From: Chthonomonadaceae bacterium
Lineage (GTDB): Bacteria > Armatimonadota > Chthonomonadetes > Chthonomonadales > Chthonomonadaceae
Direction: 5' to 3'
NCBI GenBank assembly: GCA_025054835.1
Contig: JANWZQ010000022.1
Span: 1-57,038, forward strand
DNA: 57,038 nt
The position numbers were made by a program, and so were the translations under genes. Position 1 is the stretch's first letter. The number at the start of each line of letters is the position of its first letter. The notes under the pieces were generated by a model. The model saw nothing but the letters and a program-made list of their open reading frames with translations. It was not told where the DNA came from and did not search any database. Positions 3,103 to 48,216 of this stretch are shown here, piece after piece.

Positions 3103-3129
3103 GCAGCAGGCAGGAAACGGGGTTCCGAA

Positions 3130-3699
3130 TTATTTCACCAGAGAAAGCACCTCACGAAACTCCGGTGTTCCTGCCTCGTACAGCAGTTCGTAGAGCACAC
3201 TCTCCACGGTGCCCAGAATCACTCCCCCCTGTCGCATTTTATCGACACCAACCCGGTAGTTGACCTCGGTTCGAGAGGAAATCGCGTCCACAGCAAGGTG
3301 CACCTGGAACCCGGCTGCAATCAGATCGTGAGCAGTCTGACTGACGCAGATGTGCGACTCTACACCGCACAGAACGATCTGCTTGCGCCCGGATCGTTGT
3401 ATCTCTGAGGCGAACGCCGGGCTGGCCATACAGCTGAAGGACATCTTGTCGAACGGCGTTACCAGGGGAGGCAAGCACTGCCGTATCTCCGGGATAACAC
3501 CTCCCATCCTCTTCGCGTACTGCGTGGTGGTGACCACAGGAATGCGCAACACGTTCATACCGCGCATGAGCGTGGTGACGTTCTTGATCAGGCGCTCACG
3601 CTCGAAGATCGCACCCAGGAACGGCTCCTGCATGTCGATCACGACGAGCAGCGTGTTATCCGGATGCAACAGGTGCAGGTGGTTGCGTGGGGGTTGCAC
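3130..3699 (-). CDS. Isochorismatase-family cysteine hydrolase
   Basis: 189 residues, the usual size for the family. The triad is visible: Asp in LLVVIDMQEPF (~22), Lys in PFDKMSFSC (~85) and Cys in CGVESHICVSQT (~117). The layout resembles YcaC-like hydrolases more than true isochorismatases, since the CGVESHICV block is shared by hydrolases of unknown amide substrates. It is predicted to be cytosolic. The start is GTG at 3699, with AAGGAG about 11 nt upstream on the minus strand. A possible promoter lies upstream. The neighbours do not point to a substrate. Confidence 0.85.
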   Translation of the reverse strand: MQPPRNHLHLLHPDNTLLVVIDMQEPFLGAIFERERLIKNVTTLMRGMNVLRIPVVTTTQYAKRMGGVIPEIRQCLPPLVTPFDKMSFSCMASPAFASEIQRSGRKQIVLCGVESHICVSQTAHDLIAAGFQVHLAVDAISSRTEVNYRVGVDKMRQGGVILGTVESVLYELLYEAGTPEFREVLSLVK

Positions 3700-3752
3700 G
3701 GTAGCTTCATCTCCTTCCCAACAGGCCTCTGGTAACTCGGATCATCAAGCAG

Positions 3753-3782
3753 ATTATTGGCCGGAGCCACCCGTAGCTCCAA
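3753..3782 (-). promoter_or_regulatory. Possible promoter for the isochorismatase-like gene
   Basis: On the minus strand TTGGAG (3782-3777) and AATAAT (3758-3753) are separated by 18 bp. Both boxes deviate from consensus, so this is a weak prediction. Confidence 0.3.
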
Positions 3783-3809
3783 TTGTACCTGTCAGTCATG
3801 CGGGATCCG

Positions 3810-4934
3810 CTACTGTTGCCGCAACATTTGCTTGAGCTCTGTGGGGTTGCTGGTTGTTTGCAGGGCCTCTTCCACGGAAATGATCTGGCTGTGCACCATC
3901 CGCTCCAGTGCCTGATTCATGGTGTTCATCCCGAAGTGGCTTCCCTCACGGATGCAGGCATAGAGCGAGGTCGTGTCACCTTCTTCCAGTGCTTTACGTA
4001 CGCGCGGGGAATTGGTCATGATTTCCACTGCGGGAACGCGTCCACCTCCACGTGCCCGGCGTACCAGCCGTTGCGACGTGACACAGAGCAACGAGGACGC
4101 CAGCTGCTGGCAGGTCTGCTGCTTGAGGTGCTGGGGAAAACTGTTGACGATACGGTCAATGGTTGTGGCTGCAGATGTGGTGTGCAACGTGGTGATGACC
4201 AGATGCCCGATCTCGGCAGCTACCATCGCAACCTCCATGGTCTCCGCGTCCCGTAGTTCACCGATTGCGATCACGTCGGGCGTTTGACGCATCACGCTGC
4301 GTAGCGCTGCCTGAAAACTCGCAGTATCTCTGCCAATCTCACGTTGATGGATCACACTCTTCCTGTCGCTGAACACATATTCGACCGGATCTTCGATCGT
4401 GAAGACATGCGCGCACTTGCTCCGATTGATCTCCTCTATCAGGGCTGCCATGGTAGTGGTTTTGCCACTGCCCGTAGGCCCGGTAATGATGATCAATCCC
4501 TGTGGCTCGAGCGCTATACGCTTCAATATCGGCGGTAATCCGAGCTCCTCCACAGTGAGCGGGTACAGCGGGATAATCCGTAATGCAGCCCCCACACATC
4601 CGCGCTGCAGAAACAGGTTGGCGCGTACACGGGCAATACCGGGGATGGTGAACACCAGATCCAGCTCGCGCAGACGGTACAGCTCCTCCATCAGATCATC
4701 CGGACTGTCGTTCAGAGAGATTTCTTTATCTTCTTCCAGCAGCAGCGTATCCCTGCCAGCACTGAACAGGATCTCGTAGGCCAGTTCACGCGTTTCAGTC
4801 ACACTGAGAGGGGGCAGATCACTCACATGCATCCGCCCATCTACCCGGAAGATCGGAGGCGCGCCTGCTTTCAACACCAGATCGGATGCTTTACCTTGCA
4901 TCGCGACTTCAAGCAGGGCGTGGATACTGTGCAT
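3810..4934 (-). CDS. pilT: PilT-type twitching motility ATPase
   Basis: 374 residues. PilT ATPases are cytoplasmic hexamers that power retraction of type IV pili. The N-terminal domain begins with the family pattern of a lone Ser-Asp (ASDLVLKAGAPP). The C-terminal RecA-like core has Walker A GPTGSGKTTTM (~residue 155), an Asp box in FTIEDPVEYVF, Walker B with the catalytic Glu in DVIAIGELRDAETM, and a His box in LVITTLHTTSA. A segment of ~15 extra residues around the acidic DSPDDLMEELYRLREL stretch is longer than in compact PilTs. No pilB, pilC or pilin genes are next to it here, so it could also be a PilU-like paralogue. The start ATG (4934) has AAGGATG-type Shine-Dalgarno pairing. Confidence 0.9.
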   Translation of the reverse strand: MHSIHALLEVAMQGKASDLVLKAGAPPIFRVDGRMHVSDLPPLSVTETRELAYEILFSAGRDTLLLEEDKEISLNDSPDDLMEELYRLRELDLVFTIPGIARVRANLFLQRGCVGAALRIIPLYPLTVEELGLPPILKRIALEPQGLIIITGPTGSGKTTTMAALIEEINRSKCAHVFTIEDPVEYVFSDRKSVIHQREIGRDTASFQAALRSVMRQTPDVIAIGELRDAETMEVAMVAAEIGHLVITTLHTTSAATTIDRIVNSFPQHLKQQTCQQLASSLLCVTSQRLVRRARGGGRVPAVEIMTNSPRVRKALEEGDTTSLYACIREGSHFGMNTMNQALERMVHSQIISVEEALQTTSNPTELKQMLRQQ

Positions 4935-5085
4935 GGCTCATCCTTGCGCGGTGTATTGCGGGCTCAACGGCAGTACAGCCCGACCATCAGGGGTCGGGAT
5001 CCCGGAGCTACCAACCCGATATGTTAGACCTCTGATGCCCGCAGATTGTTCCGCTCTTTTCACCAGGCCGGTAGCCCGGCAGAGA

Positions 5086-5114
5086 TTGCAAATCTGCCCT
5101 TCCTGCTGTATAAT
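5086..5114 (+). promoter_or_regulatory. Strong sigma-70-like promoter for the CBS-DUF1385/argS operon
   Basis: TTGCAA (5086-5091), a 17-bp spacer, then a perfect TATAAT (5109-5114). Transcription would start near 5121. This places the translation start of the next gene at 5158 or 5203, not at the much longer frame that opens at 4933. Confidence 0.7.
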
Positions 5115-5157
5115 TCTGCATAAGGTCCCGGGTGCATCTGCACGGCTTCGCGGCCTG

Positions 5158-6396
5158 ATGTCAAACCGGCCTTTGTTCGAGGCATTCGGGTATCAGAATT
5201 TCATGACCATTGCTCCCAACAGCCCCGCGCCCTCCCTGCGCGCCGTCATGCGGCCTGTGCCACAGGTCGCACCTGAAGACAGTCTGGAGCGTTATCTGCA
5301 AGCGATCCGCTTTCTGCCGGTTGCTACACTGCCGGTCGTGCATCAAGGCCGCCTGCAGGGCATCGTGCGCGTTCAGGACGTGATGCAGTCGCTCGCGACA
5401 ACGGCATCGCCATCCGAACGCGAGACGCGGCTTCGTTCCCCTGTTGCCCCTTTTGTACGGAAGGCGCCGATGACCCTGTCGCCAGAGACATCCCCGCAGG
5501 AAGCGGAGCGTCGATGCGCCGACGCCGGAGAGCTGCTTCTACCCGTTGTCGACGCCGACGGTTACTACCTGGGGGTCGTGCTGGCAACGGACCTGCTGGT
5601 ACCCGACCTGCCCAGACCTGTGCCCCCACGCATCGGTGGTATGGCCACACCGTTCGGTGTCTACCTGACCGACGGCACCCATCAGGCAGGGGTAGGGAAC
5701 TTCGCGCTGGTAGCCACAGGAAGCGCTATCGCTCTGCTCATGGTCCTGACACTGGCTCTCGTCGAGGGAGGTCTCCAGGCCAGTCGCGCTCTGGGATGGT
5801 TACCAGCGCACGCCCATCCGCGCTTTGATATTGTGGCGCCCGGCTTCAGCAGCCTGAATCCACTCGCAACGCTCGGATTAACAGGCATTGCACTGGTCAT
5901 TTTCCTCTCACTCTTGCGCGCCACACGCCTCGCCGGATACCATGCCGCAGAGCACCAGACCGTTCATGCGCTGGAGCGTGGCGAGCGCCTGGTCCCGGAA
6001 ATCGTGAGCCGGATGCCACGTCCGCACCCGCGTTGCGGCACGAACCTGATGGCAGCAGGCATCCTGTTCTCATTGTTCTGGCAGGTCTTCGCCTATGTAC
6101 CGATGTTGCGCGAGATCCCTGCCCTGTTTGCGGCCCTTGGCGCCGCCTGCTTCTGGAGGCCCTTCGGCGCATTCCTTCAGGAGTGGTTCACCACCCGCCC
6201 TGCGACACCGCGAGAACTGGCCAGTGGCATCGCCGCCGGAGAGGAACTGGTCTGGAAGTATCTGCATAGCCCCCCTGCCCGCCCGCGCCTCTGGAGACGG
6301 CTGTGGAACATGGGGCTGGTGCAAACGCTCGCGGGGATGCTACTGACCTTCTGGGCGCTGGAATTGATACCGTTCGTAAGGAGCTTTCTGTCGTGA
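5158..6396 (+). CDS. CBS-domain / DUF1385 (YqhQ-like) membrane protein fusion
   Basis: 412 residues. Residues ~20-160 contain two CBS repeats (SLRAVMRP and MTLSPETSPQEAERRC starts, each ending in a GIVRVQDVM or GVVLATDLL element), a module that often binds adenine nucleotides. The rest is DUF1385/YqhQ-like: two or more membrane helices, then YHAAEHQTVHALE, RMPRPHPRCGTNLM and a hydrophobic C-terminus. In typical DUF1385 proteins the domain opens with a GGQAV-EGVMM-type motif; here the corresponding stretch is IGGMATPFGVYLTDGTHQ, so the block is altered. The start at 5158 follows the promoter at 5086-5114; 5203 is an alternative. The stop overlaps the GTG of argS by 4 nt, so the two are translationally coupled. 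Confidence 0.75.
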   Translation: MSNRPLFEAFGYQNFMTIAPNSPAPSLRAVMRPVPQVAPEDSLERYLQAIRFLPVATLPVVHQGRLQGIVRVQDVMQSLATTASPSERETRLRSPVAPFVRKAPMTLSPETSPQEAERRCADAGELLLPVVDADGYYLGVVLATDLLVPDLPRPVPPRIGGMATPFGVYLTDGTHQAGVGNFALVATGSAIALLMVLTLALVEGGLQASRALGWLPAHAHPRFDIVAPGFSSLNPLATLGLTGIALVIFLSLLRATRLAGYHAAEHQTVHALERGERLVPEIVSRMPRPHPRCGTNLMAAGILFSLFWQVFAYVPMLREIPALFAALGAACFWRPFGAFLQEWFTTRPATPRELASGIAAGEELVWKYLHSPPARPRLWRRLWNMGLVQTLAGMLLTFWALELIPFVRSFLS

Positions 6397-8177
6397 TCAC
6401 AGAGCAACTGGCTGCCCTCGTTCGAAAGGCTGTTCTGGCGGCACGTGACGCAGGCGACCTCCCCCTCGACGACACCGAGGTACAGGTGTCACTGGAAACC
6501 CCTAGAAACAAGCAGCATGGCGACTACTCGAGCAACATCGCACTCACGTTGAAGAAAGCAACAGGCATCCCTGACAGTCGGGAGATCGCCACACGCATCC
6601 TCAAACATCTGCCTGCTGACAGTGGTCTGATTGAACGTGCAGAGGTAGCAGGTCCCGGCTTCCTCAACTTCTACCTGAACCCCTCCTGGCTCCACGATAT
6701 GCTCGTTCGCATCGAACAGGAAGACCAGCGCTACGGGGCCAGCAACGAACGTGCGGGGGAGACGGTGCTGCTTGAGTTCGTCAGCGCCAATCCCACCGGC
6801 CCGATCAGCGTTGTTAACGGGCGTGCTGCCGCGCTGGGCGATGTGCTTGGCAACCTGCTTGCCGCGCAGGGGTGTACGGTACGCAGGGAGTTCTATATCA
6901 ACGACGCGCTCAACTCCACACAGATCGACAAGTTCGCCGAGACCATTGCAGTCCGCTACATGCAACACCTTGGCTATCCCGTCCTGATGCCCCCCCGCGA
7001 TCCCAGTGCGGAGTCCGTCGTGGAACCCCCGCTTGCTCCGCCGGAAGACGGGCGTGAACGGCCACCGATCCCCTTCCCCGAGAACGGGTACCGCGGTGAC
7101 TACATGAAAGAGATCGCCCGGGAGATCCTCGAGGAATTCGGACGCGCCTACGAGCACCTTGAGCAAGCCGAACGTGCCCGTGCATTCCGTGATGCTGCTC
7201 TGCAACGGTGCCTGAACATGCAACGCAGCGCACTGGAAGCATTCGGCATTGTGTACGACTGCTGGTTCCATGAGAGCAGCCTGTACGAAAACGGGGAAGT
7301 CGAGAGAACCCTTGCAACCCTGAAGGCGCGCGGGTTCACCTACGAGAAAGAGGGAGCCCTCTGGCTCTGCTCCACGCAGTTTGGCGATGACAAAGATCGG
7401 GTGCTGGTACGCTCCAATGAAAAAGCCACCTACATCGCTGCTGACATCGCCTATCATGACAACAAGTTCCGACGAGGCCACGACCGGCTCATCAATATCT
7501 GGGGAGCCGACCACCACGGCTATGTCAGCCGCCTCAAAGCAGGCATTGCGGCCCTCGGGTACGATCCGAACCGGCTGGAAATCATCCTCACCCAGATGGT
7601 CTCCCTGCTGCGTGACGGGGAACCAGTCATGGGAGGTAAGCGGCATGGCAACGTCATCGAGTTGAAGGAAGACATGCTCGATGAGATTGGAAAAGACGCT
7701 GCCCGCTTCTACTTCCTGCTCAGCTCCTACGAGAACCCAGCCACAGTCGATCTGGAGCTGGCCAAAAAGCAGTCCAACGAGAACCCGGTCTACTACGTCC
7801 AGTATGCGCATGCCCGTCTCTGCAATATTTTGCGCAGGGCGGAAGAAGCCGGCATTTCTGTCAGGCCGGCCCATGCGGTTCATCGCGCGCTGCTCGCGCA
7901 CCCCGCGGAACTGGACGTGCTCCGCAAACTGGCAGACTTCCCGGAAGAAGTAGCCCTCGCCGCACGCGACTACGCGCCACATCGCCTGACGCGCTACGCG
8001 ATGGATCTGGCCGGACTGCTGAACATCTTCTATGAAAATTGCCGGGTTCTGTCCGGACAGGAGGAAACGGTTCCGGCGGAATTAACGGAGGCCCGGCTTG
8101 CCCTGGTGAACGGGGCACGCATCACGCTACGCAACCTGCTCGGGTTGCTCGGGATCTCGGCTCCGGAGCGTATGTGA
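6393..8177 (+). CDS. argS: Arginyl-tRNA synthetase with unusual class I signatures
   Basis: 594 residues. ArgRS charges tRNA-Arg in the cytosol. The order of elements fits: an N-terminal Add-1 domain with KQHGDYSSNIAL, the Rossmann fold entered by EFVSANPTGPISVVNGRAA, NIWGADHHGYVSR, the KMSK region as VMGGKRHGNVIELKE, and the DALR anticodon domain with PVYYVQYAHARLCNILRRA. The HIGH motif, usually HVGH after NPTGP, reads SVVN, so both signature His residues are lost. The KMSK loop is also altered (GGKRHGN). A Pro-rich insertion of ~20 residues precedes the FPENGYRGDY element. GTG at 6393 is chosen because TAAGGAG lies 9 nt upstream and the length then fits the family. It overlaps the preceding stop by 4 nt. 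Confidence 0.93.
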   Translation: MITEQLAALVRKAVLAARDAGDLPLDDTEVQVSLETPRNKQHGDYSSNIALTLKKATGIPDSREIATRILKHLPADSGLIERAEVAGPGFLNFYLNPSWLHDMLVRIEQEDQRYGASNERAGETVLLEFVSANPTGPISVVNGRAAALGDVLGNLLAAQGCTVRREFYINDALNSTQIDKFAETIAVRYMQHLGYPVLMPPRDPSAESVVEPPLAPPEDGRERPPIPFPENGYRGDYMKEIAREILEEFGRAYEHLEQAERARAFRDAALQRCLNMQRSALEAFGIVYDCWFHESSLYENGEVERTLATLKARGFTYEKEGALWLCSTQFGDDKDRVLVRSNEKATYIAADIAYHDNKFRRGHDRLINIWGADHHGYVSRLKAGIAALGYDPNRLEIILTQMVSLLRDGEPVMGGKRHGNVIELKEDMLDEIGKDAARFYFLLSSYENPATVDLELAKKQSNENPVYYVQYAHARLCNILRRAEEAGISVRPAHAVHRALLAHPAELDVLRKLADFPEEVALAARDYAPHRLTRYAMDLAGLLNIFYENCRVLSGQEETVPAELTEARLALVNGARITLRNLLGLLGISAPERM

Positions 8178-37492: not shown

Positions 37493-38761
37493 ATGAGACT
37501 CTCTTCGACACGGCAGTCCGTCCTGATCCGGCTGACTCTAACCTGTGCCATACCGGGGATCCTTATCATGCATGCAGACCCTGCAGACGCGCAACTCACG
37601 CTGAAACTGCGGGCGGAGAAACACGCCTGCCGCAACGTGCCTGTACTGATTCCTCTCTCGCCAGAGGCTCTGAAACGCCTCGGACGTAATGTACCGGGCG
37701 CTGTCCGTCTGGAGTCTGGAGAGGACACCACCATCGGGCAGATCTGGCAGGAGGGCGATACAACGGCTCTGGTGTTCCTCCCGCGAGAACTGCCACGTGG
37801 AGCCACACGTACTTATCGGGTGCGTCCGGAGCGGCGTACACAGACTGCAGTGACCGTGCAACGTCAGGACAGTGACATGGTGGTGATGCTCGGTTCCCGG
37901 CTATTCACGCGCTACCACACGCAGACATCCCCCTTCAAGCCCTTCCTGTATCCCCTGCTCACCCCCGGTGGAGAACACTTCACGCGCCGTTTTCCGCAGG
38001 AAAAAGTGGCCGGAGAGTCCACTGACCACGTCCATCATCGAGGCCTCTGGTTCACCCACGGCGAAGTCAATGGTGTGGACTTCTGGTCAGAAGGCCAGCA
38101 GGCCGGAAGGACGGTACATACGGGTTATGCCGCCACGTTCCAGGGCCCGGTCATGGGAGGCTTCGTGGCGCTCACGGAATGGCGCGCTCCGGACAACACG
38201 CTTGTGGCCACCGACCGGCGCACGGTACGGGTCATTCCTCTGCCCAATGGAGACCGGATCCTGGATTTCGAGATCACCATGCGACCGGCCGGAAAGGAGT
38301 TGCACTTCGGCGATACCAAAGAGGGCACTTTCGGTATCCGGGTTGCCGAGTCGTTGGCGCCGAAGCCAGACCGGACGGCAGGCATCCAGTCCCCCACAGG
38401 GCGCATGATCAATTCCGAAGGCGCGAAGGACGGCGCAGTCTGGGGCAAAAAGGCGGCATGGGTCGACTATTCTGGCCCCATTGGTGGCGAGATCTACGGC
38501 ATTGCGATCTTTGATCACCCGACCAACTTCCGCTTCCCCACCACGTGGCATGCTCGTGAGTATGGTCTGTTCGCGGCCAATCCTTTCGGGTTGCACGATT
38601 TCAATCAGGGCGCGAAGGGCGCGGGGGATTATCGTGTAGCGTCGGATGCGACATTCACACTGCGCTATCGCGTACTGCTTCACAGGGGCACCCCGGAGAC
38701 CGCCGACGTCGCAACCCGGTTTGCTGTCTACGCAGAGCCCCCGGTCGTTGAAATACAGTAA
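37493..38761 (+). CDS. Secreted DUF6807 (PmoA-like) protein
   Basis: 422 residues with a signal peptide (AIPGILIMHADPADA). The rest matches the DUF6807 'PmoA family' proteins: FTRYHTQTSPFKPFLYPLLTPGG, DHVHHRGLWFTHGEVNGVDFW, ESLAPKPDRTAGIQSPTGRM and DHPTNFRFPTTWHAREYGLFAANPFGLHDF in the order seen in the family. The name comes from weak similarity to methane monooxygenase subunit annotation; no such activity is implied. The conserved HVHHRG and His/Asp residues suggest a carbohydrate-processing or metal-binding fold. It heads an operon with the PhyH-like and pseudo-phosphoesterase genes (16 and 4 nt gaps). Biochemical function unknown. Confidence 0.8.
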   Translation: MRLSSTRQSVLIRLTLTCAIPGILIMHADPADAQLTLKLRAEKHACRNVPVLIPLSPEALKRLGRNVPGAVRLESGEDTTIGQIWQEGDTTALVFLPRELPRGATRTYRVRPERRTQTAVTVQRQDSDMVVMLGSRLFTRYHTQTSPFKPFLYPLLTPGGEHFTRRFPQEKVAGESTDHVHHRGLWFTHGEVNGVDFWSEGQQAGRTVHTGYAATFQGPVMGGFVALTEWRAPDNTLVATDRRTVRVIPLPNGDRILDFEITMRPAGKELHFGDTKEGTFGIRVAESLAPKPDRTAGIQSPTGRMINSEGAKDGAVWGKKAAWVDYSGPIGGEIYGIAIFDHPTNFRFPTTWHAREYGLFAANPFGLHDFNQGAKGAGDYRVASDATFTLRYRVLLHRGTPETADVATRFAVYAEPPVVEIQ

Positions 38762-38777: not shown

Positions 38778-39557
38778 ATGTCTTCCCCGCCATCCCCGGA
38801 ACGGATCCACCAGCACGTACAGGACATACGCATGGCAGGCTACACGGTGCTCGACGAGTCCCTCCCGGAGGCCACCATTACCGCGATGCTGTCTGCATTC
38901 GATCCCCTGCTGGAGGCGAAGCGAGCCACAGAGCCGCCCAACCGGGGCGCCAATCGCTTCCAGATGGATCTCCCGTTCGAGCCTCCGTTCGCAGATCCCC
39001 TGCTCTACGCACATCCAACCGTGCTGGCCATTGTGGAGGCCCTGTTCGGGCCAGACTACATCTGTACTTACTTTGCGTCCGATACACCGTTCCCCGGTGC
39101 AGAATACCAGAAGGTTCATCTGGATTGCCGCCTGCCTTTCCCGGAAAGCCCCTATGGCGTCCCCACTTACAGCGTGGTGCTCAATGTGCCTCTGGTGGAC
39201 TATACCGAGGACAACGGCCCTCTGGAGATCTGGCCCGGGGGCACGCATATGATTGCACAGCCCGAAGACATGGAACGCCTCGCGGCCATGATGCCCTCGG
39301 TACGTTTGAAGCTGAAAGCGGGCAATCTCCTGCTGCGCGATGCGCGTCTGTGGCACCGTGGCACCCCCAATACAGGCTCCCGGTCACGTCCCAATCTGGC
39401 GGTCGTCTATTCCCGTGGGTGGTTCCGCTTCGAATACCATCCCCGCCGGATCCAGATCCCGCGCACGACCTTCGAGGGGTTCTCACAACCCTTGAAGCAG
39501 ATGTTCCGCTACTGCGCGATCCTGAACCCGGATGGAACGATCTCCGATGTGGAGTGA
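38778..39557 (+). CDS. Phytanoyl-CoA dioxygenase (PhyH)-family protein
   Basis: 259 residues. Fe(II)/2-oxoglutarate oxygenase fold: HxD metal motif in QKVHLDCRLPFPE, then the distal His in DARLWHRGTPNTG and the 2-oxoglutarate Arg in SRSRPNLAVVYSRGW. The core VLNVPLVDYTEDNGPLEIWPGGTH is characteristic of PhyH. No signal peptide is present, so it acts in the cytosol although its neighbours are exported. Start: aaggag at 38761-38766, 11 nt before the ATG. Substrates in bacteria range from sugars and nucleosides to osmolytes; here unknown. Confidence 0.85.
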   Translation: MSSPPSPERIHQHVQDIRMAGYTVLDESLPEATITAMLSAFDPLLEAKRATEPPNRGANRFQMDLPFEPPFADPLLYAHPTVLAIVEALFGPDYICTYFASDTPFPGAEYQKVHLDCRLPFPESPYGVPTYSVVLNVPLVDYTEDNGPLEIWPGGTHMIAQPEDMERLAAMMPSVRLKLKAGNLLLRDARLWHRGTPNTGSRSRPNLAVVYSRGWFRFEYHPRRIQIPRTTFEGFSQPLKQMFRYCAILNPDGTISDVE

Positions 39558-39561
39558 CCAG

Positions 39562-41742
39562 ATGCGTTTCCGCGGCCTTCTGGGCGTCGGGGTCCTGATC
39601 CTGTTGCTCACGCGCGTCGCACACGCCCAGCGCAGCGAAGACCGATTTGTCTTCTGGCACATCTCCGACACATACATATCTGCTACCGAGGATCGTGCAG
39701 CGGTAGCACCGATACCGCAGGAGGCGCTCTCGGCCGGTTCACGCCCCGCGTTTCTGATCCATACCGGTAACGTCTCCTTCTCTGGCCGGCAGGAAGAGTA
39801 CACGCGTTTCAAAGAGGCGTTCCAGCGCCTGGAAGAAGCACGCATCCGTCTTTACGCGATTCCGGGGCGTCAGGAGATGCGTTACGCCCCGGAGGGCAAG
39901 GGAGGATTTCAGACGGCGTTCGGTAAGCTCTATCAGTCCTTCGACTACGGAGGCACGCACTTTGTGCTTCTGGACACCACAGTCGCTCTCCAGTCTTACG
40001 GGCACATCGATCGCGCCCAGCTCAAATGGTTGGCGAAGGATCTGGAGCGCGTCCGGCCCGAAACTCCCATTCTGCTGTTTCTGCATCATGAGTTCGGTCA
40101 GGAACCTCCGGGAGTTCGCCCTATCGCCAACGAGTTCGAGCTCTGGCCCCTGCTGCGCGGGAAGAATGTGATCGCAATTTTCACCGCGGAAGGGCGCCGG
40201 GAGGCCCTTTTCCGCAAGAACGGCGCTACCGTCATCACGGCCCGCCAACTGGGCCGGGGAACTTTCCATCGGGTCACCGTTACTCCCCTGCTGGTGACCG
40301 TCGAGCGCGTTCAACGTAACGGCGAGGTCACGCCCGTTGTCACGATCCCGGTTTCGCCCCGCGCACGCCCTTCGGTGCTCCGCGCAGGGTTCGATGACGG
40401 CAACACCCCCTACCTTGTTCGTCGACATCCGATCGCCCTGCTCAATCCCCGTGCGGTCAACGACAACCCGGAGCAGGAGATGGCGGAGCTTCGCATTGAC
40501 GACGGCCCCTTCTCTCCAATGGTGCGGGACGCACGGGACATCTGGCGCGCTCCCTTTCGTACGGAACAGATCCCGGTAGGCGTGCATTCCGCAACCATCC
40601 GCCTGACCACCAGCAATCAGGCGGTGCACGAGGCGGAAATCATCTTCGAGGTCGAGCGCGATGCGCGCGAGCCTACCCGCCGGTGGGCTGTGGATCTGGA
40701 CGGGCCCATCCAGTCGGATCCGTTGCTGGTCGGGGACACACTGTACGTCTCCTGTCTGGACCACCGGGTTTACGCATTCAATACGAGCAATGGAAGAAAA
40801 CGGTGGACGTTCACGGCCCGGGGGCCCTTCCTCGCCTCGCCTGTGCTCAGCGGCAACACGCTCTACATTGGCTCCACCGATGGTACACTCTACGCGCTGG
40901 ATGCCGGTAGCGGCCGGGTCCGGTGGCGTTACGACACCGGCAAACCAATCTACGCCACGGCCGCAGTGGCCCGGGGGGTGGTATGTATCGGGGGCAACCA
41001 GCGGATCCATGGTGTGGACGCCGCCACAGGCCGACAACGCTGGACGCAATCGGCGGGCCGTTTCTTCCAGTCGCGTGTGGCCACAGACGGCTCCACGTTC
41101 TATCTCGGAGGTTGGGACGGTACCCTGTATGCCCTGGAGGCAGAGTCCGGTACCCTTCGATGGGCCCGGATGCTCGGACAGACTCAGGAAGAAGAGAGCG
41201 TGGTGGTTGGAGCGCCCGCAGTAGCCTCCCCTGTTGTGGCCGCCGGACGGGTATTCATCAGCACCACAGACGGTCGCCTGATCGCTCTGCGCGCCGGGGA
41301 CGGACAGACGCTCTGGACCGTGCGTGCTCCGCAAGGCAGTGACGCTTTTGGCACCTCTTCCGGCACGGTTGTCGGCCCGACTCTGTTCGTCGCAGGTACC
41401 GGAGATGCCAGCGGCCACGGCGACGTGTACGCGCTGGATACGGCTACAGGAAAGATCCTCTGGCGGACGCGCACCGGTCAGAACATTGTCAGCTCCTCTC
41501 CCAGAATGGCTCCGGACGGCAGGTCATTCGCGATCATGGGGGTGCGTGGAAAGGTTTCGGTGCTGGACACGCTCTCCGGCGCGCGCCTGTGGGGATACGA
41601 ACTGGGGCCGGGTAATATCTTCTCCACACCGGAGTACGATGGGCGCGCCGTGTATACCGTGACCATGGCCAACGACGTTCAGGTGATCGATGGGCCCGGA
41701 CATGGCGTCACGCCGGGCAATCGTGACACGGCCACTCCCTGA
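39562..41742 (+). CDS. Secreted pseudo-metallophosphoesterase / PQQ-propeller fusion
   Basis: 726 residues. A signal peptide (LLGVGVLILLLTRVAHA) leads into a calcineurin-like fold (~25-260), with the five motifs in position but changed: HISDTYIS (DxH to DxY), IHTGNVSFSG (GD to GN), AIPGRQEM (GNHD to GRQE), LFLHHEFG kept, and FTAEGRRE (GHxH lost). Most metal ligands are gone, so it is probably inactive. A linker and an eight-bladed PQQ-like propeller (~370-720) follow, e.g. GRKRWTFTARGPF, GRVRWRYDTGKP, GRQRWTQSAGRF, GTLRWARMLGQ. Start ATG 39562 has GGAG 7 nt upstream. A binding or sensor role in the envelope is my inference. Confidence 0.82.
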   Translation: MRFRGLLGVGVLILLLTRVAHAQRSEDRFVFWHISDTYISATEDRAAVAPIPQEALSAGSRPAFLIHTGNVSFSGRQEEYTRFKEAFQRLEEARIRLYAIPGRQEMRYAPEGKGGFQTAFGKLYQSFDYGGTHFVLLDTTVALQSYGHIDRAQLKWLAKDLERVRPETPILLFLHHEFGQEPPGVRPIANEFELWPLLRGKNVIAIFTAEGRREALFRKNGATVITARQLGRGTFHRVTVTPLLVTVERVQRNGEVTPVVTIPVSPRARPSVLRAGFDDGNTPYLVRRHPIALLNPRAVNDNPEQEMAELRIDDGPFSPMVRDARDIWRAPFRTEQIPVGVHSATIRLTTSNQAVHEAEIIFEVERDAREPTRRWAVDLDGPIQSDPLLVGDTLYVSCLDHRVYAFNTSNGRKRWTFTARGPFLASPVLSGNTLYIGSTDGTLYALDAGSGRVRWRYDTGKPIYATAAVARGVVCIGGNQRIHGVDAATGRQRWTQSAGRFFQSRVATDGSTFYLGGWDGTLYALEAESGTLRWARMLGQTQEEESVVVGAPAVASPVVAAGRVFISTTDGRLIALRAGDGQTLWTVRAPQGSDAFGTSSGTVVGPTLFVAGTGDASGHGDVYALDTATGKILWRTRTGQNIVSSSPRMAPDGRSFAIMGVRGKVSVLDTLSGARLWGYELGPGNIFSTPEYDGRAVYTVTMANDVQVIDGPGHGVTPGNRDTATP

Positions 41743-43345: not shown

Positions 43346-44527
43346 CTACCAGTCGCCCACGCTGCCGTCCTGATAGAACACCAGCTGTGGCAACTCTTGC
43401 TGGAACGGGTACTTCTTCACGGCCGCCTCATTGATCTCGATGCCCAGCCCGGGTCGGTTGCCCGGACGCACGATACGCCCGTTGCGCTCCACCTGGAAGC
43501 CTTCTGACACGATCTCCTGCCGCCATGGAACATCCCGGTGTACACTCTCGCAGATGATGTAGGAGGGCGTGGCAAATCCGAACTCCAGAGAAGCCGCCGT
43601 GCTCACCGGTCCCTGCGGATTGTGTGGGGCGAGCGCTACCCGGTAGGCCTCGGCCATTGCTGCGATGCGTCGCATTTCTGATAGCCCGCCCACATGCGTG
43701 ATGTCGCATTGCAGCACGCTGCATGCCCGTTTCTCCAGATATTCCCGCACCGCGTACTGGGAAACCAGGCGCTCACCGGTCGCGATGGGCGTGGCTACGG
43801 CGCGCTGGATCAACGCGATGTCGTCCGTCACCTCGGGCCAGCAGGGCTCCTCCAGCCAGTACAGGCCATAGGGCTCCAGCGCTTTCGCAAAAAGCATCCC
43901 CATGCGTGGTGACGGGCGCGCATGACAGTCCACCATGATGTCGATCTCCACGCCAACGCGCTCTCGCATGGCCGCCACGCAGGCCTCGGCATACTTGACT
44001 GGCCGTAGCCCCTCCAGAGGTCCGGTCCAGGGCACCGCCATCGATTTGAACGCGGTGAAGCCCTCCTCGACCGCCTGCTGTGCCAGATCGGCAAACCGTT
44101 GCGCGTCCGCCGGGCTGGTCTCGTAGAACTCCTCCATGCGTCCGCCCCCGAGATGGCAGTAGAGCCGGATGTAGTCCCGTACCGGCCCACCCCAGAGTCG
44201 GTGGCAGGGCACTCCATGCACTTTGCCCAGGATATCCCACAACGCGATGTCGATACCGGAAATCGCGGTGCCCCGGACGATGCCGTTGCCATGCCAGAAA
44301 TGCTGGCGGTACATTTTCTGCCAGAGATACTCGATCCGTGTTGGATCCTCACCGATCAGTAGAGGCGAAAGATCTTCGATGGCGCCCAGCACACTGCGCG
44401 TGTGCCACTCCAGCGTCGCCTCCCCCCATCCCCAGAGACCGGGCTGGTCTGTTACGACCTTGACAAAAATCCAGTTGCGCATGCGCGCATTGCACACATG
44501 CGTCTCAATCGCTGTGATCTTCACCAT
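43346..44527 (-). CDS. Enolase-superfamily sugar-acid dehydratase (galactonate dehydratase-like)
   Basis: 393 residues. Mandelate-racemase/muconate-lactonizing type barrel with a capping domain ([21 protein letters not shown]). [11 protein letters not shown], the metal ligands Asp in [11 protein letters not shown], Glu in [10 protein letters not shown] and Glu in TPIATGERL, and His in [13 protein letters not shown] fit the D-galactonate dehydratase branch of the superfamily. These enzymes abstract the alpha proton of sugar acids to give 2-keto-3-deoxy acids. AGGAGG sits only 2 nt before the ATG; GTG at 44524 as the start would give normal spacing. First gene of the minus operon; diverges from the three-gene cassette. 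Confidence 0.87.
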
Positions 44528-44790
44528 TGCCTCCTGCCGGAGCGTTCCTCTGCTCCTCACTATCCCGGGGGTCCAGATCCCGGCGCACAGTCGTCGTGCT
44601 CTACCGGTCCGGAAGCGCCTGCTACCCCGATCGAGAAATTACCGGACGCATGGCCGAAATCCTGCCCCTTCTCCCCTCTGGCAAACAGGGAAACGCCCGT
44701 TGTCCGGCGAAAACACCTCCGGGTACAACCGCCTGATCTCCCGCTGTACCCGCAGACTTTCCCGGATCGTTGGCCCGGAAGGATTGCCAG

Positions 44791-46071
44791 ATGACCACCA
44801 CACCCTTTGCCACCCGGGTCCTCGAGGCCCATGTGTCGTTCCAGACACAACCGTTTCAAACCCCGTTGATGCTGAGCAGTGGCCCGATCACCGAGATCAC
44901 TCAGGCGGAAGCGCAGGTCGTTGTGGAAGTAGAGGGCCGGCAGGGCATCGGACGGGGCGCGATCTATCTGAGCGACCTGTGGGCATGGCCGGATCCCTCC
45001 CTATCCCATGCCGTACGGGACTCCCGGATGCGTGACCTGTGCCTGCGTCTTGCTGCGGAACTGCCTGAGCTCTGCGGAGACGAACCCGCGCACCCTCTGG
45101 AACTGGGCCTGCGCTTGCACGCGTCCGTCGCGGCGCTTGAACTGCCAGATGGCATGCCCCCGCTGGCACGCCAGGTGTGCCTCAGTCCGTTCGATGCCGC
45201 CATTCATGATGCTGCCGGTCAGGCATTGCAACGCTCGGCCTTCTCCCTGTACGTCGATCCAGCGCCTCTGCCCTCCGCCGACCTGCTCTTCCCGGCAGAA
45301 GGCGCATCACGGGCTGTGCAGCAGATCCTCCGTCCGCCCCGGATGGCGCAGCGCGCCTGGCTCGTGGTGGGTACCGCAGAACCGCTGGAACGCATGCAGG
45401 AATGGATCCGTGAGCGGAGGTACCACGCCTTCAAGTTGAAACTGGGCGGCAAAGACAATGCAACCGACGTAGCCCGAACCGTGGAGGTGTTTCGCTCGGC
45501 GCGCGCGTTCGGCGTCGCGACACCACGCCTCTGCGTGGACAGCAACTGTGGCAATCCGGATGCGGCCAGCGTGCTGGACTACCTGGAACGCCTGTATGTT
45601 GCATCCCCGGAGGCCTATGACGCGCTGGAGTATGTGGAGCAACCTACCGGACGCGATATCGCAACGCACGCTTTCGACTGGAGGCCGGTCAACGCACGCA
45701 AGCCTGTTATCCTGGACGAGGGGCTGACGGACTTCGATCGTTTGCAGCTGGCCCGCACGCAGGGCTGGGGAGGTATCGCCGTGAAGACCTGTAAAGGACA
45801 CAGTTTCGCGCTGGTGGCCGCTGCATGGGCCGGGAAACAGGGCATGCAGATCGCCATGCAGGATCTGACCAATCCGGGCCTCGCTGCGATCCACTCCTTC
45901 CTCATGGCAGCGCACCTGCATCCGTTCAATGGCATTGAACTGAACTCCCCGCAGTACACGCCTGATGCCAATCACCGATGGCTCCCCCGCCTCAAATCGC
46001 TTTTTGAGCCCAATGACGGCTACCACCGCCTCCCCGGAGATGTGCCGTACGGGCTGGGCAGCACGCTATGA
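44791..46071 (+). CDS. Enolase-superfamily protein of unknown specificity
   Basis: 426 residues. Superfamily features: KxK in HAFKLKLGG (barrel strand 2), metal ligands Asp in LCVDSNCGNPD, Glu in EYVEQPTGRD, Asp/Glu in VILDEGLTD, then KTCKGHS in the place of the usual second Lys. The capping domain (first ~140 residues) is unusual and long. ATG 44791 has GGAAGGA 8 nt upstream. Its stop overlaps the SDR-like gene by 4 nt. It is clearly distinct from the DgoD-like protein next door. Likely a dehydratase, epimerase or cycloisomerase of a sugar or keto acid. Confidence 0.78.
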   Translation: MTTTPFATRVLEAHVSFQTQPFQTPLMLSSGPITEITQAEAQVVVEVEGRQGIGRGAIYLSDLWAWPDPSLSHAVRDSRMRDLCLRLAAELPELCGDEPAHPLELGLRLHASVAALELPDGMPPLARQVCLSPFDAAIHDAAGQALQRSAFSLYVDPAPLPSADLLFPAEGASRAVQQILRPPRMAQRAWLVVGTAEPLERMQEWIRERRYHAFKLKLGGKDNATDVARTVEVFRSARAFGVATPRLCVDSNCGNPDAASVLDYLERLYVASPEAYDALEYVEQPTGRDIATHAFDWRPVNARKPVILDEGLTDFDRLQLARTQGWGGIAVKTCKGHSFALVAAAWAGKQGMQIAMQDLTNPGLAAIHSFLMAAHLHPFNGIELNSPQYTPDANHRWLPRLKSLFEPNDGYHRLPGDVPYGLGSTL

Positions 46072-47114
46072 GTACCCATATGTCGTTGCCAGAGACCATA
46101 CAGAACGGTGCGCAGCTGGACGATCTGCTCAGCGCGCCTACCGACGGTGTGGTGCAGACGTTTCGCCGTATGGAAGGCGATCTGATTCTGCTGGGGGTCG
46201 GGGGCAAGATGGGGCCGAGCCTGGCCCGCATGGCTCGACGCGCTACAGAAGCGGCGGGTGTCCCACGAAGGATCTTCGGGGTGTCGCGCTTCTCACGCCC
46301 GGAGACGCAGGCGGCACTCAACGCGCAGGGTATCGAGACCATTGCCTGTGACCTGCTGGACCTGGAGGCGTTGCACCGATTGCCCGATGTGCCCAACGTG
46401 GTTTTCATGGCGGGCACGAAGTTCGGCACCACCGGTCAGGAGGCCCTGACCTGGGCGATGAACAGCTTCCTCCCGGGGATGATCTGCCAGAAGTTCCGAC
46501 ATAGCCGGATCGTTGCCTTCAGTACCGGCAACATCTATCCCCTCTCGCCACTCACACTGGGGGGTTCCGTGGAAACCGATCCGCCTGGCCCGATTGGCGA
46601 GTACGCAATGAGCTGTCTGGGGCGCGAACGCATTCTGGAGCATTTCAGTCGCACCCTCTCTGTTCCAACTGCGATCCTGCGGCTCAACTACGCGATTGCG
46701 CTGCGTTACGGCGTCCTGACTGACATCGCACGTCAGATCCGTGACGGCCGCCCAATCCCGCTCACCATGGGCATGGTCAACGTGATCTGGCAGGGTGACG
46801 CCAACGCCATGGCCCTGCAGTGCTTCGATCATGCTACTTCCCCGCCTTTTGTGATCAACCTTGCCGGGCCGGAGCAGCTGAGTGTGCGGCGGATCGCCAT
46901 GCAACTCGGGGAGCTGTTACAGCAGTCCCCCCGGTTTGAGGGCGAGGAAGCACCGAACGCCCTGCTGAGTAACGGCCAGATGGCGCACCACCTGTTCGGC
47001 TACCCGCGCGTGAGCGTGCGGCAGATGGTGCACTGGACTGCCGACTGGATCCGGCGGGGAGGCGAGGAGCTGGATAAGCCGACTCATTTCGAGGTGCGCG
47101 ATGGTCAGTTCTGA
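46068..47114 (+). CDS. NAD-dependent epimerase/dehydratase-like protein with altered active site
   Basis: 348 residues. Extended SDR fold: glycine motif LLGVGGKMGPSLARM, FSTGNIYPLSP (Ser/Thr position), then the catalytic Tyr in GEYAMSCLGRE. In the classic YxxxK motif the fifth position is Cys, so the Lys is absent. ILRLNYAIALRYG and VINLAGPEQLSVR are typical of the family. It overlaps the enolase-like gene (ATGA) and the DapA-like gene (14 nt), so the three are one translational unit. The role is likely an NAD(P)-linked sugar conversion, though with unusual chemistry if it is active. Confidence 0.8.
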   Translation: MSTHMSLPETIQNGAQLDDLLSAPTDGVVQTFRRMEGDLILLGVGGKMGPSLARMARRATEAAGVPRRIFGVSRFSRPETQAALNAQGIETIACDLLDLEALHRLPDVPNVVFMAGTKFGTTGQEALTWAMNSFLPGMICQKFRHSRIVAFSTGNIYPLSPLTLGGSVETDPPGPIGEYAMSCLGRERILEHFSRTLSVPTAILRLNYAIALRYGVLTDIARQIRDGRPIPLTMGMVNVIWQGDANAMALQCFDHATSPPFVINLAGPEQLSVRRIAMQLGELLQQSPRFEGEEAPNALLSNGQMAHHLFGYPRVSVRQMVHWTADWIRRGGEELDKPTHFEVRDGQF

Positions 47115-48216
47115 CGCGACGGCAGCGCAGGAGCAGCACGGGTCCTCCACATCGTACGGTCCCGAAGTACGATGGCGCGTGCCTCTGACCTCCGGTGTTG
47201 TCATCCCGGCACATCCGCTCGCGCTGACCCCGTCAGGCCAGCTGGATGAGCGGCGGCAGCGCGCTCTCTCCCGCTACTACATTGCTGCCGGTGCTGGCGG
47301 GCTTGCAGTCGGGGTGCATACCACTCAGTTTGCCATCCGCGACCCGCAGATCGGTCTGTATCGCCCGGTCCTGCAGATTGCCGCAGAGGAGATGGATCGG
47401 GCGGATGCCACACGGAACGTGCCGCTGGTACGTGTTGCCGGGATCTGCGGCCCTACCCATCAGGCCATGCAGGAGGCTGCTCTGGCGCGTGACCTGGGGT
47501 ACCACGCTGGCCTGTTAAGCCTTGCATCCCTGCGGGACGCGGACGACGACACGCTCATCGCGCATTGCCGGGAAGTCGCCACGATCCTCCCCCTGTTCGG
47601 TTTCTACCTGCAACCGGCGGTAGGAGGGCGCCCGTTGTCCTGCGACTTCTGGCGGCGCTTCGCCGAAATCGAGGCCGTAGTAGCGATCAAGATCGCTCCC
47701 TTCGACCGCTACCGAACGCTCGACGTGGTGCGCGCGGTTGTGGAGACAGAGCGGCACGACATCGCACTGTACACCGGTAACGATGATCACATCGTGCTGG
47801 ATCTGATCACCCCGTTCCGTTTTCGAGTGCAGGGGAAGGTGGTAGAGCGGCGGATTGTTGGAGGCCTGCTGGGGCACTGGGCCGTATGGACGCGCGGAGC
47901 GGTCGCCATTCTAGAGGAATGCCGCCGGCTATCAGAGAGCGGTGCGCCGATCCCCGCGGATCTGCTGGCACTGGCGAACGCCATCACAGACTGCAATGCG
48001 GCCTTTTTCGACGCCGCCCATTGCTTTCGCGGATGCATCGCGGGCCTGCACGAGGTGCTTCGCAGGCAGGGCCTGCTGGAGAGCGTCCGATGCCTCGATC
48101 CGAACGAAGGCCTCTCACCGGGCCAGAATGAGGAGATTGATCGCGTTTATCGTACCTATCCTCATCTCAACGATGACGATTTTGTGGCCGCACACCGCGA
48201 CGAGTGGCTCCGTTGA
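47101..48216 (+). CDS. Dihydrodipicolinate synthase (DapA)-family aldolase-like protein
   Basis: 371 residues, longer than DapA (~290) mainly at the C-terminus. The barrel entry SGVVIPAHPLALTPSG, a GAGGLAVGVHTTQFA segment and the Schiff-base Lys in VVAIKIAPFDRYR are clear. The usual Tyr-containing motif (Y-x-x-P) appears as FGFYLQPAVGG. DapA-family lyases cleave or form keto acids such as KDG or 4-hydroxy-2-oxo acids. It ends the cassette, 16 nt before the convergent ABC permease. Substrate is unknown; a keto-deoxy sugar acid made by the upstream enzymes is my inference. Confidence 0.82.
   Translation: MVSSDATAAQEQHGSSTSYGPEVRWRVPLTSGVVIPAHPLALTPSGQLDERRQRALSRYYIAAGAGGLAVGVHTTQFAIRDPQIGLYRPVLQIAAEEMDRADATRNVPLVRVAGICGPTHQAMQEAALARDLGYHAGLLSLASLRDADDDTLIAHCREVATILPLFGFYLQPAVGGRPLSCDFWRRFAEIEAVVAIKIAPFDRYRTLDVVRAVVETERHDIALYTGNDDHIVLDLITPFRFRVQGKVVERRIVGGLLGHWAVWTRGAVAILEECRRLSESGAPIPADLLALANAITDCNAAFFDAAHCFRGCIAGLHEVLRRQGLLESVRCLDPNEGLSPGQNEEIDRVYRTYPHLNDDDFVAAHRDEWLR

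Follow-up and report, generated by a model that had tools for sequence, protein, structure and literature searches.

A widespread pair of a lysine-less extended short-chain dehydrogenase/reductase and a DapA-fold aldolase-like protein, joined by an enolase-superfamily protein in a probable Armatimonadota operon

In this study, we analysed a 57,038-nucleotide stretch of DNA from a Chthonomonadaceae bacterium of the Armatimonadota (contig JANWZQ010000022.1, positions 1 to 57,038; hereafter the window), in which three overlapping genes encode an enolase-superfamily protein (ENO), an extended short-chain dehydrogenase/reductase (SDR) and a DapA/NAL-fold class I aldolase-like protein (DHD). We found that SDR and DHD form a conserved unit to which ENO is an optional partner, and that loss of the lysine of the YxxxK motif is a trait of the whole SDR family, not of the window alone. 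The trio probably constitutes one co-translated operon that serves to degrade an acid, lactone or cyclitol of carbohydrate origin. The pair is common, being present in 55 of 251 Armatimonadota genomes and at loci in five further phyla; a defined function for it would allow a role to be assigned to many DapA-like genes whose annotation is loose, and the family-wide loss of the lysine provides a natural test of how far SDR chemistry needs that residue.

The three genes lie head to tail (Table 1), ENO overlapping SDR by 4 nt (46068-46071) and SDR overlapping DHD by 14 nt (47101-47114), and these open reading frame (ORF) coordinates agree with an earlier, sequence-only reading of the same DNA. The 4-nt ENO/SDR overlap is also present at L002 and L003, the two further loci that carry this trio. 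Whether SDR and DHD overlap by 14 nt hinges on the ATG picked for DHD, because residues 1-18 of the DHD model have a pLDDT below 50 and most homologues align only from about residues 24-29. Among the NCBIfam models matched, none of the three proteins reached a curated cut-off.

Table 1. Positions of the trio, of the altered SDR site and of the neighbouring DgoD-like gene in the window
Feature	Position	Strand	Basis
DgoD-like gene, divergent	43346-44560	-	NCBIfam PRK14017 galactonate dehydratase, 314 vs cut-off 311 bits (just passes)
ENO, enolase-superfamily protein	44791..46071	+	ORF 426 aa; Pfam MR_MLE_C 1.9e-11
SDR, extended short-chain dehydrogenase/reductase	46068..47114	+	ORF 348 aa; Pfam Epimerase 6.9e-7
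YxxxK site codons, Y179-A-M-S-C183, Cys replacing Lys	46602..46616	+	sequence; Y179 = 46602-46604, C183 = 46614-46616
DHD, DapA/NAL-fold class I aldolase-like protein	47101..48216	+	ORF 371 aa; Pfam DHDPS 4.2e-7

Of the 251 Armatimonadota genomes, 64 have a close SDR and 56 have DHD, the two occurring together in 55 (Fisher p ~1e-44, uncorrected for relatedness); the counts leave out distant or weak matches (19 of the 83 SDR-matching, 5 of the 61 DHD-matching and 93 of the 107 ENO-matching genomes). The two genes lie next to each other on the same strand in 35 of these 55 genomes, on the same contig but apart in 3, and on separate contigs in 17. The distance matrices of SDR and DHD are correlated (Mantel r 0.655, 0 of 2000 permutations) across the 37 loci that were left of 52 after removal of near-identical ones, and in Devosia (Proteobacteria) both proteins are nearest to Actinomycetota proteins, in the first place those of a Micromonosporaceae locus (L027). 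SDR relatives were identified at 58 loci in one scan of contigs. The rows of L001 (the window itself) and of L060, L062 and L066 (the same contigs as L002, L003 and L004, respectively) were dropped; the gene maps of raw loci show the longest or best-matching ORFs, made with no gene caller and including some spurious ones. The SDR-DHD pair was found in Armatimonadota, Planctomycetes, Acidobacteria, Bacillota, Actinomycetota and Proteobacteria. At least 5 kb is available on both flanks at 42 of the 66 non-Armatimonadota loci, plasmid records included, and within 6 kb of SDR at these 42 we found DHD at 34, Gfo/Idh/MocA oxidoreductase (GFO) genes at 13, xylose-isomerase-like (XI-like) genes at 9 and ENO at 4. 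At two loci, a single gene of the pair, SDR in L059 (360-1438) and DHD in L041 (8974-10091), looks split over two frames, possibly by a frameshift or an assembly error.

ENO of at least 52% identity is present in 14 of the 251 genomes, with DHD in all 14 and SDR in 13. ENO and SDR lie about 4 kb apart on one contig in G144 and about 10 kb apart in G102, and all three genes fall within about 28 kb in G136; some distant ENO matches (e.g. in G091 and G024) sit in genomes that have no DHD. A search for the trio in other genomes, as proposed with the sequence-only reading, showed ENO as part of the operon at only three of the loci scanned, namely the window, L002 and L003. However rare the full trio, sets of an ENO-like protein, SDR and DHD occur independently, with a divergent ENO homologue, in Nitratireductor, Glaciihabitans and Burkholderiales (L051/L053). 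A functional link between ENO, SDR and DHD is thus supported. Overlaps are frequent in compact genomes, and the three might be unrelated metabolic genes that merely overlap, but this is very improbable, being already contradicted by the co-occurrence and adjacency of SDR and DHD, the co-occurrence of ENO and DHD, and the independent trios in other phyla.

The SDR of the window keeps the tyrosine of YxxxK and has Cys where Lys is expected, as read earlier from the sequence, and this holds family-wide. At the Tyr+4 position (183), none of the 75 aligned SDRs, including that of the window, has Lys: 58 have Cys, which is hence not confined to the window, 10 have Ala, 6 Val and 1 Thr. Nor is Lys found there in any of 10 SDRs encoded in plasmid records, of which 8 have Cys and 2 Val. 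The structural model (pLDDT 95.6) has the extended SDR fold, and its nearest solved relative, both by sequence (E 1.5e-11) and by fold (Z 31.5, rmsd 2.4, 291 aligned), is TerB. The NAD(P)-binding GxxGxxG motif, GxxGKMG in the window, is intact, with G43, G46 and G49 in 74 of 74 ungapped rows; Y179 and Asn132 are found in 75 of 75 sequences and S152 in 73, the other two having Gly. Thus fold, NAD(P) motif, Tyr and Ser are in place and only the Lys at Tyr+4 is lacking, the site reading Y179-x-x-S182-C183 where YxxSK is expected.

Two other lysines, K47 and K118, are near-invariant across the aligned SDRs. Of 14 more distant SDRs, which are 28-40% identical to that of the window, 13 have no Lys at Tyr+4 and have both K47 and K118, whereas the single one with Lys at Tyr+4 (L158) has neither; TerB, with an intact YPVGK, also has no lysine at the places aligned to K47 or K118. 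Loss of the canonical Lys therefore goes with the lysine of the glycine-rich loop, and K47 is a candidate for taking over the role of the lost residue. K118 is not claimed as a stand-in, as in our reading it aligns with Lys84 of GalE, which binds cofactor phosphate. Tentatively, and with more doubt than confidence, these SDRs could be viewed as a large clade in which the YxxxK lysine is gone, the proton-relay and cofactor site has been rebuilt from the GxxGK47MG lysine with R186 and R188 on the catalytic helix, and an aldolase-fold partner serves a catabolic pathway outside the reference databases used. A group of Armatimonadota SDRs (L145-L157, ~34-40% identity) has Ile, Val or Arg at the position of the YxxxK lysine and keeps K47 and K118, with no DHD match in those loci.

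A lysine-less SDR is unusual yet has precedent. According to the available parts of their reports, SimC7 has the SDR fold without the canonical Tyr/Lys set, its Tyr being missing too (PMC5039031), and VEP1/PRISE is an atypical SDR with Tyr179 not conserved in VEP1 (PMC3144213); the window SDR differs from both, as described there, in keeping Tyr and Ser and losing Lys alone. Such triad-less proteins, the absence of the lysine from all 75 sequences, and the presence of epimerases, dehydratases and a decarboxylase among the structural neighbours of the model would fit an SDR that is no longer a redox enzyme and instead acts as a non-redox NAD-dependent lyase or epimerase or as a scaffold for DHD. 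We consider this unlikely, given that GxxGxxG, Ser152, Tyr179 and Asn132 are all conserved and that SimC7 is, in the part of its report available, a reductase, hence triad loss is compatible with redox chemistry.

DHD is modelled with high confidence (pLDDT 93.0) as a DapA/NAL TIM barrel close to the DHDPS structure 3pb2 (Z 33.8, rmsd 2.1, 293 aligned). The Schiff-base lysine and the tyrosine of the DapA/NAL superfamily, K197 and Y169, are present in 53 of 53 aligned sequences, K197 being aligned in a PDB profile search to the lysine of N-acetylneuraminate lyase (NAL) and DapA that we take to be the active-site one. GxxGE is the carboxylate-binding motif of this superfamily, and where GTTGE is expected all 52 ungapped rows have VH[TS]TQF instead (VHTTQF in the window). 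In the profile search, NAL came top (E 2e-9), followed by DHDPS and, lower, by L-KDA dehydratase chains, and DHD scored 18.2 bits against the DapA equivalog TIGR00674 (4-hydroxy-tetrahydrodipicolinate synthase), below its cut-off of 206.15. A surplus of about 80 residues claimed from the sequence holds against the 292-residue E. coli DapA chains (e.g. 2a6n), though part of it is an unconserved N-terminus of ~25 residues; the remainder, by our secondary-structure reading, falls within the conserved part, as a hairpin and a C-terminal stretch.

ENO carries the catalytic set of its superfamily's MLE type (K215xK217, D250xN252, E283QPxxR, D309E310, K332xC[KR]G and D358LT). Across 16 aligned sequences, which comprise the window type and the divergent proteins adjoining the pair in Nitratireductor, Glaciihabitans and Burkholderiales, the motifs KxK, DxN, EQPxxR, DE, KxC[KR]G, DLT and ExN are common to 16 of 16, and so are the MLE-subgroup residues K215, K217, D250, E283, D309 and K332. 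In the MLE subgroup, to which we assign this residue set, KxK is accompanied by Asp/Glu/Asp as metal ligands and by a Lys on the sixth strand. The best PDB profile match of ENO is a chloromuconate cycloisomerase (2.7e-12), followed by muconate cycloisomerases and dipeptide epimerases; against the muconate cycloisomerase model TIGR02534 it scored 30.3 bits, where the cut-off is 334.95. The Nitratireductor ENO-like protein is 24% identical to ENO, and the 468-aa Burkholderiales one has no Pfam match at E<=0.001. An ENO gene is also found in a conserved Armatimonadota operon (L095, 10830-19103) with DegT, isochorismatase-like, APH kinase, DUF6785, polysaccharide deacetylase and short Gfo/Idh genes, divergent from SDR.

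In the annotated records examined, the names of the pair members are generic throughout, for example 'NAD-dependent epimerase/dehydratase' for SDR and 'dihydrodipicolinate synthase family protein' for DHD. Recurrent near the pair are GFO oxidoreductases, XI-like enzymes and sugar or carboxylate transporters. The set in Nitratireductor comprises sugar ABC, TctC/A, GFO, TctB, XI-like, mandelate racemase, SDR, TetR and DHD genes, and that in Glaciihabitans D-hydroxyacid dehydrogenase, sugar ABC, IclR, DHD, SDR, ENO-like, XI-like and GFO genes. Kribbella has GntR, GFO, XI-like, SDR and DHD; Mesobacillus XI-like, GFO, SDR and DHD; Streptomyces GFO, an ABC sugar transporter, SDR, DHD and a hydroxyacid dehydrogenase; and Paenibacillus SDR, DHD, heparinase II/III, a solute-binding protein and permeases, with heparinase and DHD overlapping by 4 nt in L012. 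Compared with a baseline of 20 arbitrary 20-kb stretches from seven Armatimonadota genomes (4 GFO, 0 XI-like and 0 ENO matches), GFO density is higher at the Armatimonadota loci (0.37 vs 0.10 per 10 kb), and XI-like matches number 16 per 931 kb of non-Armatimonadota loci vs 0 per 400 kb of this arbitrarily placed DNA. The sequence-only reading had taken the trio for a sugar-acid or inositol-acid set; its functional linkage and carbohydrate- or acid-like catabolic surroundings are borne out, but the full trio is narrow and the widespread unit is SDR-DHD. An inositol acid may be one of several candidate substrates.

These surroundings also raise the possibility of cyclitol (inositol-like) catabolism, in which GFO would oxidize the ring, the XI-like enzyme dehydrate it, SDR reduce a cyclic dione, and ENO and DHD open and cleave the product. 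GFO and XI-like genes adjoin the pair in Kribbella, Mesobacillus, Nitratireductor, Glaciihabitans and Aquisphaera, and TerB, the closest solved relative of SDR, has been crystallised in complex with polyporic acid, a quinone. However, one or both of these genes are missing from most loci and both families act on many sugars too, so that we regard this specific route as quite improbable.

From the observed fold classes, catalytic residues, gene coupling and recurrent neighbours we infer the following chemistry for a carbohydrate-derived substrate. ENO would use its MLE-type Lys/Lys and metal site to remove the alpha-proton from a carboxylate or lactone, and elimination or ring-opening would then give a 2-keto-3-deoxy-type acid. 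SDR would contribute a single NAD(P)-dependent redox reaction at a carbonyl or hydroxyl of the ring or chain, relying on Tyr179 and Ser152 without the usual lysine, and DHD would form a Schiff base between K197 and a 2-keto acid, with cleavage or dehydration to pyruvate-level products. In such a scheme SDR and DHD would be the fixed core, and ENO, GFO, the XI-like enzyme, a D-2-hydroxyacid dehydrogenase and differing transporters lineage-specific add-ons.

Several observations weigh against this interpretation. SDR is found without DHD in 9 of 64 genomes, no DHD lies within 6 kb in 8 of the 42 full-flank loci, and GFO, XI-like and ENO genes lie within that distance in just 13, 9 and 4 of them; moreover, the Fisher tests ignore relatedness, and some of the loci in which GFO, XI-like and ENO genes were counted had also served to build the profiles. 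The haloarchaeal SDR adjoins DegT or FAH proteins, and DegT, class III aminotransferase, M20, amidohydrolase, NagB-like and GNAT genes at several loci suggest an amino-sugar or N-acyl substrate. DHD could then act like NAL, its best profile match, on an amino or acylamino 2-keto acid, with deacylases and aminotransferases supplied by its neighbours: NagB-family and amidohydrolase genes lie immediately upstream of ENO-SDR-DHD in L003, DegT, class III aminotransferase, M20 and deacetylase-like genes occur in Armatimonadota ENO/SDR clusters, and DegT borders SDR in haloarchaea. Yet none of these genes borders the trio in the window, they are missing from the Nitratireductor, Mesobacillus and Kribbella sets, and DapA and HOGA structures fit DHD equally well as NAL, so catabolism of an amino sugar or N-acyl amino compound appears unlikely, and we prefer the reading in which the substrate is an acid, lactone or cyclitol of carbohydrate origin.

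Elsewhere in the window, the DgoD-like gene that the sequence-only reading had counted with the set is real, but it is rejected as a fourth member since its conservation with the trio is absent: the scanned loci of relatives showed no such gene next to the pair, apart from one weak match of 27% (L038). It may nevertheless feed the same pool as the trio, and DHD might cleave its product. KDPG aldolase (PF01081) has no match in the window genome, which therefore leaves the DapA-type enzymes as aldolase candidates, the genome having four DHDPS-family proteins and one marginal HpcH/HpaI match. A DUF6807 protein is encoded upstream of the trio (37493-38761, +), and a 32% identical one lies upstream of the trio in L003 too (3112-4275), with amidohydrolase and NagB-like genes intervening. 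Between the former and the trio, a 736-aa protein (39532-41742, +) is an unusual fusion of a weak N-terminal match to a cyclic-nucleotide phosphodiesterase-type metallophosphatase and a C-terminal PQQ-like beta-propeller. An ORF that we take, from reading its sequence, to be arginyl-tRNA-synthetase-like overlaps the preceding ORF by ~90 nt (4933-6396 and 6303-8177, +), and its start is likely misplaced. On two haloarchaeal plasmids (L140, 7583-10047; L162, 6473-9047), SDR directly follows a gene for a DegT-type aminotransferase, and the annotation of these regions includes no DHD.

No characterised pathway matching the pair or the trio was recognised in open-licence papers or in PDB sequence searches. 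The terfestatin biosynthesis oxidoreductase TerB (PDB 6d2v, 6nd7), the nearest solved SDR, keeps the lysine of YPVGK where the window SDR has Cys. The corresponding partner in the echoside and daturamycin systems, EchC/DatC, is limonene-epoxide-hydrolase-like and not DapA-like, according to the available part of the source (PMC9379647). TerB/TerC-type terphenyl chemistry was rejected on these two grounds, the DapA fold of DHD and the lysine kept in TerB. GudL of Enterocloster is a DapA-like 5-KDG aldolase with an essential Schiff-base lysine (PMC11775122, available part), and resembles DHD, by description only, as a DapA-like aldolase recruited to sugar-acid catabolism; the same part of that description has no enolase-SDR-DapA overlap operon.

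The closest parallels come from two kinds of sugar-acid routes. Udh is a uronate dehydrogenase, an SDR with a canonical YxxxK active site, Gci is galactarolactone cycloisomerase of the enolase superfamily, and KdgD is 5-dehydro-4-deoxyglucarate dehydratase of the DapA family. They act in the order Udh, Gci and KdgD in the oxidative uronate pathway of Agrobacterium tumefaciens, as given in the available part of PMC6353982. The trio is the same gene set at the superfamily level only, its SDR being without the YxxxK lysine, its DHD having VHTTQF and not GTTGE, and its ENO being nearest to muconate cycloisomerases and then dipeptide epimerases. Among the PDB sequence and Foldseek matches listed, none was recognised as Udh, Gci (sequence matches only) or KdgD, a reading based on names. 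In the non-phosphorylative pentose and deoxyhexose Routes I-III, as far as described in the available part of PMC6336799, an acid-sugar dehydratase is followed by passage of a 2-keto-3-deoxy acid to a DapA- or FAH-type enzyme, with an SDR in Route III and ABC transporters clustered. An FAH gene likewise adjoins SDR in Halalkaliarchaeum, whereas the SDRs of these routes belong, in the same part of that source, to COG1028 and the window SDR to the Epimerase family, with its lysine gone; no match to any characterised member of the routes exceeded a curated cut-off. Because its SDR lacks the YxxxK lysine, the trio is not filed under either system. Taken by analogy, the best reading is that its logic of redox, enolase-type elimination and Schiff-base cleavage or dehydration would be like that of Udh-Gci-KdgD or of the non-phosphorylative routes.

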